A stretch of 64,000 nt of DNA from Deltaproteobacteria bacterium. Its GTDB lineage: Bacteria > Myxococcota_A > UBA9042 > DTJE01. The DNA lies in contig JAKPOP010000017.1 in the NCBI GenBank assembly GCA_029547805.1, forward strand, positions 186,001 to 250,000, given 5' to 3'. Below are positions 38,640 to 51,701 of the stretch, one piece after another (within the stretch, counting starts at the first letter, position 1; each line of letters begins with the position of its first letter). The notes beneath the pieces were generated by a model. The model was not told where the DNA came from. It did no database searches and saw only the letters and a list, made by a program, of their open reading frames with translations. The translations under genes were made by a program, and so were the position numbers.

Positions 38640-38787
38640 GGGACAGTCACCGAATGACCGGCCCCAACGTCCCGAATAGACTGCATATCTCTCGGACGAC
38701 CGCGATCGAGGCCCGGAGAAGGGGGCCCACCGTGACCAGTGCGCGGCGTGGGGGGAGGAGCGGAGACCTTCCCCGCGTGGAGGCGAT

Positions 38788-41143: not shown

Positions 41144-41959
41144 ATGGACGTCCCAGGAACCTTCGATCCGGCCGTTCTGCGCTTGCGCCAGCCCCTCTCG
41201 CTGCGCCCCCACTGCGAGACCTGGGCCTGCACGGTCCGGGGAAGACCCCTGGTGGTCCGTCGCTATGACCCCCGGCGTCCGGGGGTCCCCTGGCCGCCCC
41301 CGCCCGACTTGGAGGGCATCGCCCCCCCGCATCCCCGGGTCGAACGCCTGGTGGGCTGGAGCATCGACCCCGACGGGGTGGTCTGGCACCTCTTCCGCCA
41401 GGTTCCGGGCCGGGCCCTGCGGCAGGCCCTGGCGGAGGGGCCCCTCCCGTCTCCCCGGTGGCTCCCGATCCTCGCGGACCTGGCCAAGGGCCTGGCGTGG
41501 CTGCACGAGGACAGTCCCGCAGCCCCGAGGCTCCACGGCGACGTCTCCCCGGGCAACCTGATCCTCACGCCCCGGGGCCGGGGAGTGCTGGTGGACCTCC
41601 GGGGCGACCGACCGGGTTCCCATGGACCCGGAGAGGGCCTCCAGACCGGCACGATCCCCTACGTTGCCGCGGAGGTCCTGGAGGGAGCCGCCCCGACGAC
41701 CGCCTCGGAAGTCGCCTCGATGGGGTGGCTGACCTGCCGGGTCCTCGGGGTCCTGGATCTCCCCGGAACTGCCGTGACTCCCCGGGAGGTGGCCCGGACC
41801 CGTTGGCCGGACCTCCGGTCCCTGCGGTCTGCCGATCCGCCCCTGACGGCCCTGGTCGAGGCCATGCTGGCAGCGGACCCTCGGACCCGACCGACGGCCC
41901 GGGAGGTCCATCGGGAGGTCCGGCGGATGCTGCGCCGGACGGGCCCCGAGAGACCCTAG
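41144..41959 (+). CDS. Divergent protein-kinase-like protein
   Basis: This 271-residue protein has a kinase-like C-lobe. The catalytic loop reads LHGDVSPGNL (H131, D133, N138) in place of HRD. The metal-binding motif is VDLRG (D151) instead of DFG. An N-lobe Gly loop and the VAIK lysine are not recognisable (LVVRRYD in place). TIPYVAAEVL and ADPRTRPTAREV fit the activation segment and the kinase C-lobe ending. It may be an active atypical kinase or a pseudokinase; the sequence alone cannot decide. It probably follows dnaJ in one transcript, as the spacing is 60 bases and no promoter is evident. Confidence 0.6.
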   Translation: MDVPGTFDPAVLRLRQPLSLRPHCETWACTVRGRPLVVRRYDPRRPGVPWPPPPDLEGIAPPHPRVERLVGWSIDPDGVVWHLFRQVPGRALRQALAEGPLPSPRWLPILADLAKGLAWLHEDSPAAPRLHGDVSPGNLILTPRGRGVLVDLRGDRPGSHGPGEGLQTGTIPYVAAEVLEGAAPTTASEVASMGWLTCRVLGVLDLPGTAVTPREVARTRWPDLRSLRSADPPLTALVEAMLAADPRTRPTAREVHREVRRMLRRTGPERP

Positions 41960-42969
41960 GCGCCGCCCCCCATCTCCCCTTCCCGCTCGAGGCGGCGGAT
42001 CACCTCCCAGCGCTGCCGGTCCTTGTAGCGGGGGTGGCTCCCCTCCCCCTCCTCGTTGCGGTCCCAGGTCTGGCGGTCGAACACCTGGAACTCCACCGGC
42101 TGCATCACCAGGAACCCCAGGCGATCCCCCACGGAATGGACCTTCGTCCGCTCCGGAACCGGGATGGGCAGGTCCACGACGAAGTTCACCATGCGGAACC
42201 CCGCTGCCGAGAAGCGGTTCCAGTCCTGGCGGTCCGCCGCATCCTCCACTGCGAGTCGGATCCACAGGCGGCGCCGGGCATCGGGGTCCGCCCGGAGGGC
42301 CTCCACGAGTTCCTCGTTGCGGACGATCTCGTTCCGGGACTGACCCGGAACCACGTAGTTCCATGCCAGCAGGCGGTCCTTGAGGCCCGCGAGCAGCGGA
42401 ACGATGTCCCTGGCCTTCTCGCAGACCAGGCGGCACCGGACCCGGTCATAGATCTGGGCCGCCACCGTGATCTTGCGGCCGAGGATCTTGGTGAAGAGGC
42501 TGTGGGCGGACTTCCGGCTCGACCGGTAGGAGACCAGCGTGATCCCCTCGGCCTGCAGTTCGTGCACCGCCCGGTCCAGGGCCTCGGAGGCCCGGTGGAA
42601 CAGCACCTCCTCGTCCAGGGGCAGGCGGGCCCGCAACTCGGTGGCCTCGACGTGATTGATGATGTGCATCGACTTGAGCAGCACGCAGGCGATGCGCTGC
42701 CAGGGATTCCGGATGTCCGAGGCAACCATCAGCAGGTCCAGGGTCGAATCGGGTCGGGTCAGTTCCCGGGGAAACCGGTAGTCGAAGGTCCTCTCCAGGT
42801 ACTCCACGGATCGCCACAGCAGGTCCCGGAGTCGCTGCTGGGCCTGGGGCTCCTGCAGGTCGTAGCCGTTCACCCGGAGGAAGGCCGCCGCCTCGTCGGT
42901 CGTGGCCAGATGGAGCCGGGGCCAGTCCACCACCGACCCTCCCCGGAGCAGCAGGCGCACCGCGTCCAC
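41956..42969 (-). CDS. TIGR04552-like family protein, possibly RelA/SpoT-like fold
   Basis: About 337 residues (start uncertain) resemble a family labelled TIGR04552 in NCBI annotation, known mainly from myxobacteria and of unknown function. The core contains SYRSSRKSAHSLFTKILGRK and AAQIYDRVRCRLVCEKARDI, which recall the K...SI..K..R and EIYDLIAVRV wording of RelA/SpoT nucleotidyltransferases; this is an inference. I prefer GTG 42969. The frame stays open up to an ATG at 43242, but that stretch is Pro/Ala-rich, lacks other starts, and contains a promoter-like element. Its 3' end overlaps the kinase-like gene by four bases; the upstream neighbour is divergent rpoN. Confidence 0.65.
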   Translation of the reverse strand: MDAVRLLLRGGSVVDWPRLHLATTDEAAAFLRVNGYDLQEPQAQQRLRDLLWRSVEYLERTFDYRFPRELTRPDSTLDLLMVASDIRNPWQRIACVLLKSMHIINHVEATELRARLPLDEEVLFHRASEALDRAVHELQAEGITLVSYRSSRKSAHSLFTKILGRKITVAAQIYDRVRCRLVCEKARDIVPLLAGLKDRLLAWNYVVPGQSRNEIVRNEELVEALRADPDARRRLWIRLAVEDAADRQDWNRFSAAGFRMVNFVVDLPIPVPERTKVHSVGDRLGFLVMQPVEFQVFDRQTWDRNEEGEGSHPRYKDRQRWEVIRRLEREGEMGGGA

Positions 42970-43048
42970 GTCTGCCAGGCTGAGCCCCGCTTCCCATCGT
43001 GGTCGGCCGATCGTCTCGATGTCCGGCTCCCGTGTCTCCGATAGGCCG

Positions 43049-43077
43049 AGTCTATCCCTCCCGGGAGGGATGTCCAG
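43049..43077 (-). promoter_or_regulatory. Promoter of the TIGR04552-like gene, with palindrome in the spacer
   Basis: On the minus strand CTGGAC at 43077-43072 and TAGACT at 43054-43049 are separated by 17 bases. The spacer is almost wholly the perfect palindrome described at 43054-43071. Confidence 0.5.
43054..43071. repeat. 18-base perfect palindrome, candidate operator
   Basis: ATCCCTCCCGGGAGGGAT is its own reverse complement. It lies between the -35 and -10 boxes of the minus-strand promoter in the 328-base region between the TIGR04552-like gene and rpoN. A dimeric regulator bound there would sit exactly on the promoter spacer. Confidence 0.6.
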
Positions 43078-43216
43078 GGCGGGCCGCGCGAGCGGGGCGG
43101 CCGCGGGGCCGAGAGCGAGGCCCGGAGAAGGGGACGCGCCGCGACTCGGCGGCGGGGCGCCGGAAGGAACGGAGCCCTTCCCCTCCTGCCGGTGACCTGT
43201 CCAGGCGTCCGCCGCC

Positions 43217-43245
43217 TTTACAAGGTCCGGACCCGGCTTCATAAT
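43217..43245 (+). promoter_or_regulatory. Promoter of rpoN
   Basis: TTTACA at 43217-43222 and CATAAT at 43240-43245 are 17 bases apart. The -10 overlaps an ATG at 43244. Transcription would begin near 43252, which favours the ATG at 43298 as the rpoN start. Confidence 0.55.
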
Positions 43246-43297
43246 GGACTTGTCTGGCCCAGGCGAAGGGCCGGCGCGGCTTGAAGAACTGGTGGCG

Positions 43298-44773
43298 ATG
43301 GAAATCCGGCAGGAGCAGTCCCTCAAACTCCTTCAGAAACTGGTGCTGACCCCCCAGTTGCAGATGGCCATCCGCCTGCTGCAACTGTCCCGGATGGAAC
43401 TGGTCGAGGAAGTCCGCCAGCAACTGGAGTCGAACCCGGTCCTGGAGGAGGACGGGATCGACGAGCAGACCCTGTCCTACGACGACGCGGCCCGAGAGGT
43501 CTCCGAGGGCGAACCGCCGGTCGCGCCCTCCCGGCCGGAACCGGAGGAGTCCGTCGGCGAGGCCCCGGACCGGGAGCCGACCTCCCCGGATCAGGAGGTC
43601 CAGTGGGAGCAGTTTGTCGAGGACTACGGCCGGTTCAGCAGCGGGCCCCAGGTCCGGGTCTCCAACGAGGAGTACCCGTCGGTGGAGGCGACCGTCAGTC
43701 ACCGGACCAACCTGACGGACCACCTGCTCTGGCAGTTGCAGCTCTCGGACCTCCGGGAGGCGGACCGGGAGATCGGGGCCTTCCTGGTGGGGAACCTGAA
43801 CGAGGACGGCTTCCTGAAGGACCTCACGGTGGAGGAGGCAGCCGCGCGGCTGGGGGTCCCGGAGGAACGGGTCCGGAGGGTCCTGCGGCGGATCCAGACC
43901 TTCGACCCCGTGGGCGTCGGCGCCCGGGACCTCCAGGAGTGCCTGTTGATCCAGGCCCGAACCCATCACCCCAAGAACGAGCGGCTCCACCTGCTGCTGG
44001 AGCGCTATCTGCCGGAACTGGAACGACGGAACTTCAGCGCCATCGCCCGGGGTCTTCGGTGCTCGCTGGACGAGGTGAAGTCCCTGGTGGAGACGGTCTG
44101 CCGGATGGACCCCCGGCCTGGTCGAGCCTTCAACCAGGATGACGTGATCTACGTCCAGCCGGATGTCTATGTCTTCCGGGTCGGGGACGAGTATGTCACG
44201 GTGCTCAACGAGGACGGGCTGCCCCGGCTCCGGATCAGCGCCTACTACGAGAGCGTGCTGTCGGGTCAGTCCCACGGGGAGGCGAAGGACTTCGTCCAGG
44301 ACAAGCTGCGGTCCGCGATGTGGCTGATCCGGAGCATCCAGCAACGCCAGAGCACGATCCGGAAGGTCACCGAGAGCATCATGCGCTTCCAGCGGGACTT
44401 CCTGGACCATGGCGTCACGCACCTGCGGCCTCTGGTGCTGCGGGACGTCGCCGAGGACGTGGGCATGCACGAGTCCACGATCAGCCGCGTGACGTCGAAC
44501 AAGTACGTCCACACCCCCCGGGGAATCTTCGAACTGAAGTACTTCTTCAACAGCCGGATCGGCAGCGTCCAGGGGGAGGACCAGGCCAGCGAGGCGGTCA
44601 AGGCACAGATCAAGGCCATCGTCGAGGCGGAGGACCCCAGGTCCCCCCTCTCGGACCAGGAGATCGTGGAGCGGCTCCGGGCGGTGAACGTGGTGATCGC
44701 CCGACGAACGGTGGCGAAGTACCGGGAGGCGCTGGGGATCCTCCCCTCCTCCCGGCGGCGCGCCCTGGTGTGA
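43298..44773 (+). CDS. rpoN: RNA polymerase sigma-54 factor
   Basis: This 491-residue sigma-54 factor reads -24/-12 promoters and needs AAA+ activators such as the NtrC-type protein at 63193. Region I begins IRQEQSLKLLQKLVLTPQLQ and IRLLQLSRMELVEEVRQQLE, followed by an acidic region II. The DNA-binding parts contain VAEDVGMHESTISRVTSNKYV and the RpoN box ARRTVAKYREALGI. I choose ATG 43298, where the family starts and after the predicted transcription start, over ATG 43244, which lies within the -10 box. hpf and rapZ follow, a conserved neighbourhood. Confidence 0.95.
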   Translation: MEIRQEQSLKLLQKLVLTPQLQMAIRLLQLSRMELVEEVRQQLESNPVLEEDGIDEQTLSYDDAAREVSEGEPPVAPSRPEPEESVGEAPDREPTSPDQEVQWEQFVEDYGRFSSGPQVRVSNEEYPSVEATVSHRTNLTDHLLWQLQLSDLREADREIGAFLVGNLNEDGFLKDLTVEEAAARLGVPEERVRRVLRRIQTFDPVGVGARDLQECLLIQARTHHPKNERLHLLLERYLPELERRNFSAIARGLRCSLDEVKSLVETVCRMDPRPGRAFNQDDVIYVQPDVYVFRVGDEYVTVLNEDGLPRLRISAYYESVLSGQSHGEAKDFVQDKLRSAMWLIRSIQQRQSTIRKVTESIMRFQRDFLDHGVTHLRPLVLRDVAEDVGMHESTISRVTSNKYVHTPRGIFELKYFFNSRIGSVQGEDQASEAVKAQIKAIVEAEDPRSPLSDQEIVERLRAVNVVIARRTVAKYREALGILPSSRRRALV

Positions 44774-46120: not shown

Positions 46121-46267
46121 CGACCATCCCGCCATGGATGCCTGCGCCCACTGGAAGGAGAGGAGGCCTTGCCACCACCGTGGCGCCGTCCGAACGAAGG
46201 GGCCCCTCGTCCCGGGGACCGGAACCGGGGAGATGTCGTTTCCTTCCAGTCCAAACCCCTTCCTCGA

Positions 46268-50937: not shown

Positions 50938-50966
50938 TTGACACGAAGGCGTCGGGGTGCTACGGT
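50938..50966 (+). promoter_or_regulatory. Promoter of the tetR-exporter operon, predicted leaderless
   Basis: TTGACA at 50938-50943 and TACGGT at 50961-50966 are 17 bases apart, with TGC before the -10 (TGCTACGGT). Exactly six bases separate the -10 box from the ATG at 50973, and there is no ribosome binding site, so the transcript should begin at the start codon. Confidence 0.6.
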
Positions 50967-50972
50967 CCCCTC

Positions 50973-51701
50973 ATGAAGGGAAGAGCCACCGATGCCCCCG
51001 GTCCAACGCCGACATGGCCGGACATCGGGGAAGAGACTCCCGTCCCGGGCAGCGAATCCGGGGTGGTCTCTCCCCCTGATTTGCCGGCGCCGGAGACCCG
51101 GGACCGGCTCCTGGAGGCCGCCGAGCACCTCTTCGCGACCCGGGGCTACCGGGGGGCCTCGGTGCGTCAGATCGCCCGGCGGGCCCGGTGCAACGTCTCC
51201 CAGGTGGGCTACTACTTCGGGTCCAAGGAGGGGCTGCTCCGGGAGGTGATGCGACCCCGTATCCGGCGACTGCGAGGCGTCATCGATCAACTGGGCGAGG
51301 CGGACCGGTTGACGGAGGCCCATCTGCGGGCCTTCCTGGAGTCCCTGGTGGCGGAACTGGACGACCATCGGCCCTTCTTCCGATTGATGTTCTCGGAACT
51401 GCTCCGGGAGGACAGTCCCCTGGACCCCGCCGCGATGGAACCGATCTGGGAGAACCAGCGGGCCGCGATGGCGGTTCTCGAGCGGGCCGTGCGCCAGGGC
51501 CTGGTGCGGAGAGACCTGGACCTGGGATTCGTGATGACCTCTCTCTTCGGCGCCATCGCCCTGCCAATGCTGGTCCCCCGACTGGCCCGGGGAGTCCTGG
51601 GGGACGACCCCCGGGGGGCGATGACCAGCGCCGGAGCAACGGAAGTGGCCGACATCCTGTTCCGGGGCATCCTGGAACGCGACCGACAGGAGGAGGCATG
51701 A
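50973..51701 (+). CDS. TetR-family regulator, CecR-like
   Basis: This 242-residue repressor has a 40-residue unstructured N-terminal extension before the helix-turn-helix (TRDRLLEAAEHLFATRGYRG, ASVRQIARRARCNVSQVGYYFGSKEGLLREVM). The C-terminal ligand-binding part (LDDHRPFFRLMFSELLRED, PIWENQRAAMAVLERAV) is similar to CecR/YbiH, the E. coli regulator of ybhGFSR. Its position at the head of a HlyD-ABC-ABC-permease-permease cluster supports that identity. It overlaps the hlyD gene (ATGA). ATG 50973 is set by the promoter (six bases) and the HTH start. Confidence 0.85.
   Translation: MKGRATDAPGPTPTWPDIGEETPVPGSESGVVSPPDLPAPETRDRLLEAAEHLFATRGYRGASVRQIARRARCNVSQVGYYFGSKEGLLREVMRPRIRRLRGVIDQLGEADRLTEAHLRAFLESLVAELDDHRPFFRLMFSELLREDSPLDPAAMEPIWENQRAAMAVLERAVRQGLVRRDLDLGFVMTSLFGAIALPMLVPRLARGVLGDDPRGAMTSAGATEVADILFRGILERDRQEEA

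Follow-up and report, generated by a model that had tools for sequence, protein, structure and literature searches.

A perfect 18-bp palindrome, ATCCCTCCCGGGAGGGAT, framed by promoter-like boxes and with a 16-bp core conserved in a sister species, lies ahead of the boundary of a TIGR04552-family gene that is divergent from rpoN. The boxes probably constitute a sigma-70-type promoter of that gene, with the palindrome in its spacer, and we tentatively propose that the palindrome is a repressor operator, specific to one genus and serving this single target. The gene itself probably begins with an AUC codon, and its product looks, by sequence comparison, like a remote relative of the RelA/SpoT synthetases.

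Results

A palindrome in a promoter-like spacer

A sequence-only reading of the window (the whole 64-kb stretch of DNA analyzed here, 70% GC) had reported an 18-base perfect palindrome in a promoter spacer opposite rpoN, and its sequence and position are borne out (Table 1). The palindrome is single in the genome, and among the perfect palindromes of at least 14 bp in the window it is alone in reaching 16 bp, the other eight all being 14 bp. By length alone it is a chance-level event: in first-order Markov sequences matched in composition, 0.85 palindromes of at least 18 bp are expected per 64 kb, and one or more turned up in 62.5% of 40 simulated windows. Its coincidence with a promoter spacer is unusual, and not chance-level. 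A palindrome is centered in the spacer at one of four promoter-like sites in the window, versus no case in 720 simulated windows (1.86 promoter-like sites each; palindromes counted if at least 16 bp and centered in the spacer), a comparison for which the promoter definition was set after the site had been seen and the site had been picked by a reader surveying everything.

Scanning 42500–43500 gave two promoter-like matches, one reading toward rpoN, TTTACA-17-CATAAT, and one toward the TIGR04552 gene, TGGACA-16-TAGACT; the second agrees with consensus at 9 of 12 positions and is the sole minus-strand sigma-70-like match in that interval. The promoter toward this gene had earlier been described as CTGGAC/TAGACT with a 17-base spacer. 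The promoter-like match stands, but its register shifts by one base, since CTGGAC agrees with TTGACA at 2/6 positions (by eye) and TGGACA (43076–43071) at 5/6. In the better register the palindrome therefore fills the 16-bp spacer and reaches one base into each box, taking in the final base of −35 and the initial base of −10, so that a dyad overlaps the promoter, as looked for in a repressor operator. Because the −10 box ends at 43049, transcription would be predicted to start near 43042, with a leader of approximately 22 nt. A search for structured RNA in 42900–43400 returned no Rfam match at E 1.

Table 1. Features around the palindrome, in window coordinates
Feature	Position	Strand	Basis
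TIGR04552-family gene, remotely RelA/SpoT-synthetase-like	41956..43020	-	288.3 bits to TIGR04552.1 (curated cut-off 125)
Probable AUC start codon of this gene	43018..43020	-	sister frame without alternative; codon changes
Shine-Dalgarno-like GGGAG	43027..43031	-	6 nt before ATC; AGGAG in sister, same spacing (by eye)
−10 box TAGACT	43049..43054	-	4/6 consensus; identical in sister species
Palindrome ATCCCTCCCGGGAGGGAT	43054..43071		core 43055–43070 identical in sister species
−35 box TGGACA	43071..43076	-	5/6 consensus; TGGACT in sister species
Insert with interspersed GC-rich repeat copy	43079..43197		flanked by 8-bp direct repeats; absent here in sister
rpoN promoter TTTACA-17-CATAAT	43217..43245	+	scan; conserved in sister species
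rpoN (sigma-54)	43298..44773	+	start placed at MEIRQEQ

Where the gene begins

A long open frame, 41956–43326, runs through the palindrome, which could therefore look coding. A coding role was rejected on the short frame of the sister species and on the non-coding-like codons around the site, which is probably non-coding. In the sister, the TIGR04552 frame opens just 44 codons ahead of the family motif, with no in-frame ATG, GTG, or TTG preceding the GTG equivalent to 42969. Between the two species, the nine codons separating the −10 box from the ATC at 43020 carry five nonsynonymous differences and one synonymous, the first two codons past the ATC differ conservatively (E/D and T/S), and the 29 codons from 43011 to 42927 show nine synonymous differences and zero nonsynonymous ones, a pattern indicating that coding begins near 43020. 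The predicted transcription start, the Shine-Dalgarno-like sequence, and the AUC codon follow the promoter at natural distances, and in other family members a candidate ATG lies about as far from the motif. On this comparison of two species, AUC is probably the start codon of the TIGR04552 gene and is kept in the sister. When infC was considered as a control for AUC starts, GTG proved the likelier start in both species.

A putative remote relative of the RelA/SpoT synthetases

The gene product exceeds the curated cut-off of TIGR04552.1 (Table 1), a family that has no functional name in NCBIfam; the one paper found to name it lists it in a mutation table. Once thresholds are relaxed, weak matches to the RelA_SpoT domain PF04607 appear in 25 of the 27 TIGR04552 proteins (best E 8.3e-7; window protein 0.26), and the window protein scores 12 bits, below the gathering score of 27. 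Searching 12 whole genomes with PF04607 at E 0.001 recovered the canonical Rel genes and one further match (G081) and reported none of the TIGR04552 genes. Against the PDB, the family profile gave three matches at E ≤10, all of them RelA/SpoT synthetases (E 0.0028, 0.008, and 0.084), with each single stretch weak, and comparing it as a profile with 12 genuine Rel proteins yielded a probability of 88% at E 3e-6. Eight residues are invariant in the 27 proteins (K156, S160, K164, D178, E296, H315, Y318, and K319) and align to the RSH pattern; they may have the roles of the synthetase catalytic site. The family resembles the RelA/SpoT synthetases in keeping K-x3-S-x3-K, D...R, E-x-Q, and H-x2-YK. 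The window protein differs from them at three places, the Arg located two residues ahead of the Lys and the G-loop Tyr and His. Single-sequence structure prediction of the window protein was uninformative (mean pLDDT 34.6). In sum, the TIGR04552 proteins look like distant relatives of the RelA/SpoT synthetases.

Conservation within and beyond the genus

The sister species, at 89% protein identity, is the only other member of the genus compared. Of the 89 genomes searched, two contain the exact 16-bp core of the palindrome, this one and the sister, once in each and both times at this locus. Spacer (16/16) and −10 box (6/6) are identical between the two; the last base of the −35 box, which is also the outermost base of the palindrome, differs, so the outer base pair is lost in the sister. 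The leader between the −10 box and the ATC is identical at 18/28 positions (by eye on the alignment), and intergenic identity averages 0.70 over 1631 aligned positions. Identity over 16 nt is not rare between these species: 75 of 1004 intergenic windows of that length are identical, the target's own among them, and the neighboring rpoN promoter spacer agrees at 15/17 positions (by eye).

Farther afield the palindrome is missing in all five family members that have a TIGR04552 gene beside rpoN (G002, G003, G004, G008, and G009), where the gene, again divergent from rpoN, has a different promoter, TTGTAA-17-TACAAT or TAGAAT (hexamers by eye). No TIGR04552 match was found in the other six family genomes searched. 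The sequence-only reading had named beforehand what would refute it, a lack of conservation of the palindrome at orthologous genes; at the genus level that outcome did not arise, the 16-bp core being kept in 1/1 comparison, and at the family level it did, with the palindrome kept in 0/5. As a separate observation, the divergent −35 boxes of rpoN and the TIGR04552 gene overlap in these five genomes (TTGTAA / TTTACA; by eye).

An inserted repeat between the two promoters

The insert beside the palindrome lies between 8-bp direct repeats, TGTCCAGG, at 43071–43078 and 43198–43205. Comparison of the two genomes makes an insertion here likelier than a loss in the sister. The distance from the palindrome core to the rpoN −35 box is consequently 146 nt, versus 18 nt in the sister, and the suggestion that one regulator could serve both promoters loses plausibility in this genome, where the repeat has separated them. 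By BLAST, at least 16 other places in this genome are similar to the insert, and none in the sister among 40 candidates scored per genome. A repeat model built from six copies gave at least 32 matches here (those six included; E-values are rough), and, with at most 150 candidates scored in each of nine genomes, it gave none in the sister and a single partial match in G004. The repeat is about 110–150 nt long, its copies being 71–84% identical to each other, and a second copy in the window, at 38645–38783, also falls at an alignment break with the site empty in the sister. Of the 41 pairs in its predicted RNA structure, just 2 have changed on both sides, and the covariation term is unfavorable; for these reasons we make no RNA claim for the repeat. 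Two further intergenic segments of the window, 46122–46233 and 50946–51089, are present here, largely missing in the sister contig, and unmatched by the repeat model.

The search for further sites and a regulator

One way proposed to check the palindrome was to search the genome for it and for a dimeric regulator carrying it in its own promoter. No further core site with at most one mismatch exists in this genome, and the spacer/−10 block, GGGAGGGATAGACT, has an exact match once in each of the two species. Allowing two mismatches, the 16-bp core has 25 sites here and 24 in the sister (reversed-pattern controls, 6 and 9), and a palindrome with scrambled arms has 34 and 26 (reversed controls, 14 and 10); exceeding the reversed control is therefore a general property of GC-rich palindromes of such shape. 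A regulon of core-like sites was accordingly rejected, given 25 sites versus 34 for scrambled arms in this genome. Among the secondary sites (24 here, 23 in the sister), 8 and 6 have low coding scores by an arbitrary cut-off of 8, and inspection by eye of these 14 found none with promoter geometry. One apparent site common to both species (L045/L078) was discarded; the genes align and the site positions do not. Half-site matches are at control level (6 versus a control of 4 in this genome, 8 versus 12 in the sister), 4 of the 5 other half-site matches here score as coding, and no orthologous pair was found among the half-site matches of the two species.

The search thus produced no second site and, in either species, no regulator with the palindrome in its own promoter, judged by the core with up to two mismatches and by half-sites, a search that strongly degenerate sites would escape. 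Nor was an obvious dimeric repressor seen among eight neighbor genes scanned, which include a kinase-like protein, rpoN, a ribosome-associated factor, rapZ, a HEPN protein, a ParA-like ATPase, and a protein kinase. Further literature searches turned up nothing directly on the palindrome site or on TIGR04552.

Discussion

Simple repressor operators can overlap the −35/−10 spacer of sigma-70 promoters, and a palindrome in a plausible promoter spacer suits such an operator; the simple-repressor idea of the sequence-only reading therefore survives as a possibility. We infer from the sequence a promoter that is used, bound, and repressed in the following way. A putative dimeric repressor would occupy the 16-bp spacer through two GGGAGGGA half-sites and, while bound, would keep RNA polymerase off the TIGR04552 promoter; some signal would release it, whereupon transcription would begin close to 43042 and translation at the AUC codon at 43020. 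The perfect dyad of 16–18 bp over the spacer of a near-standard promoter is what this site would share with simple repressor operators. It differs from known ones in that neither a regulator nor a second site was found in the genome and in being confined, among the genomes compared, to one genus.

Nearly as likely is that the promoter is an ordinary, unregulated one, and that the palindrome arose by chance in its GC-rich spacer and was kept in the sister because promoters change slowly. The frequency of 18-bp palindromes in simulated sequence points this way, as does the lack of a second site, and conservation is unremarkable when so many intergenic windows are identical and the rpoN spacer is nearly so. 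What tells against chance is the coincidence with a promoter spacer, unmatched in the simulated windows, though here the promoter was picked with the site already known.

It seems improbable that the palindrome belongs to the interspersed repeat, as its remnant or its edge, or is some structural DNA element, with no regulatory role. The repeat model aligned to the window copy does stretch across the palindrome (43037–43192), the last base of the palindrome is also the first of the 8-bp direct repeat, and other copies of the repeat begin with a GC-rich hairpin; yet the palindrome is present in the sister, where no copy of the repeat was detected, and the window copy shows BLAST similarity to other copies only from 43077 or one base earlier. 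Least credible of all is an operator of the MerR family activated by DNA distortion, which the sequence-only reading had also entertained: the palindrome between −35 and −10 is the MerR arrangement, but by the account in PMC9909328 such promoters, with their long palindromes, need a spacer of 19–20 bp, the spacer here is 16 bp (17 in the original register), and no second copy was found that could mark an autoregulated MerR gene.

As described in PMC5472188, infC starts with ATC in Streptomyces and IF3 represses non-canonical starts, among them the GTC start codon of sigR. The present gene would resemble sigR as a stress-related gene with a non-canonical start codon; unlike sigR, its codon is AUC, and we deduce it from the comparison of two species. 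Such a start, if conserved, would enlarge the short list of known non-canonical start codons. One could imagine genus-specific control of a divergent RelA/SpoT-like enzyme in which a dedicated, spacer-bound repressor is combined with IF3-held translation from AUC, all back to back with rpoN, but we regard this full combination as unlikely. A candidate operator in one genus is of little weight alone, and its weight comes from the gene it would control, for whose family the sequence evidence suggests a remote relationship to the RelA/SpoT synthetases.
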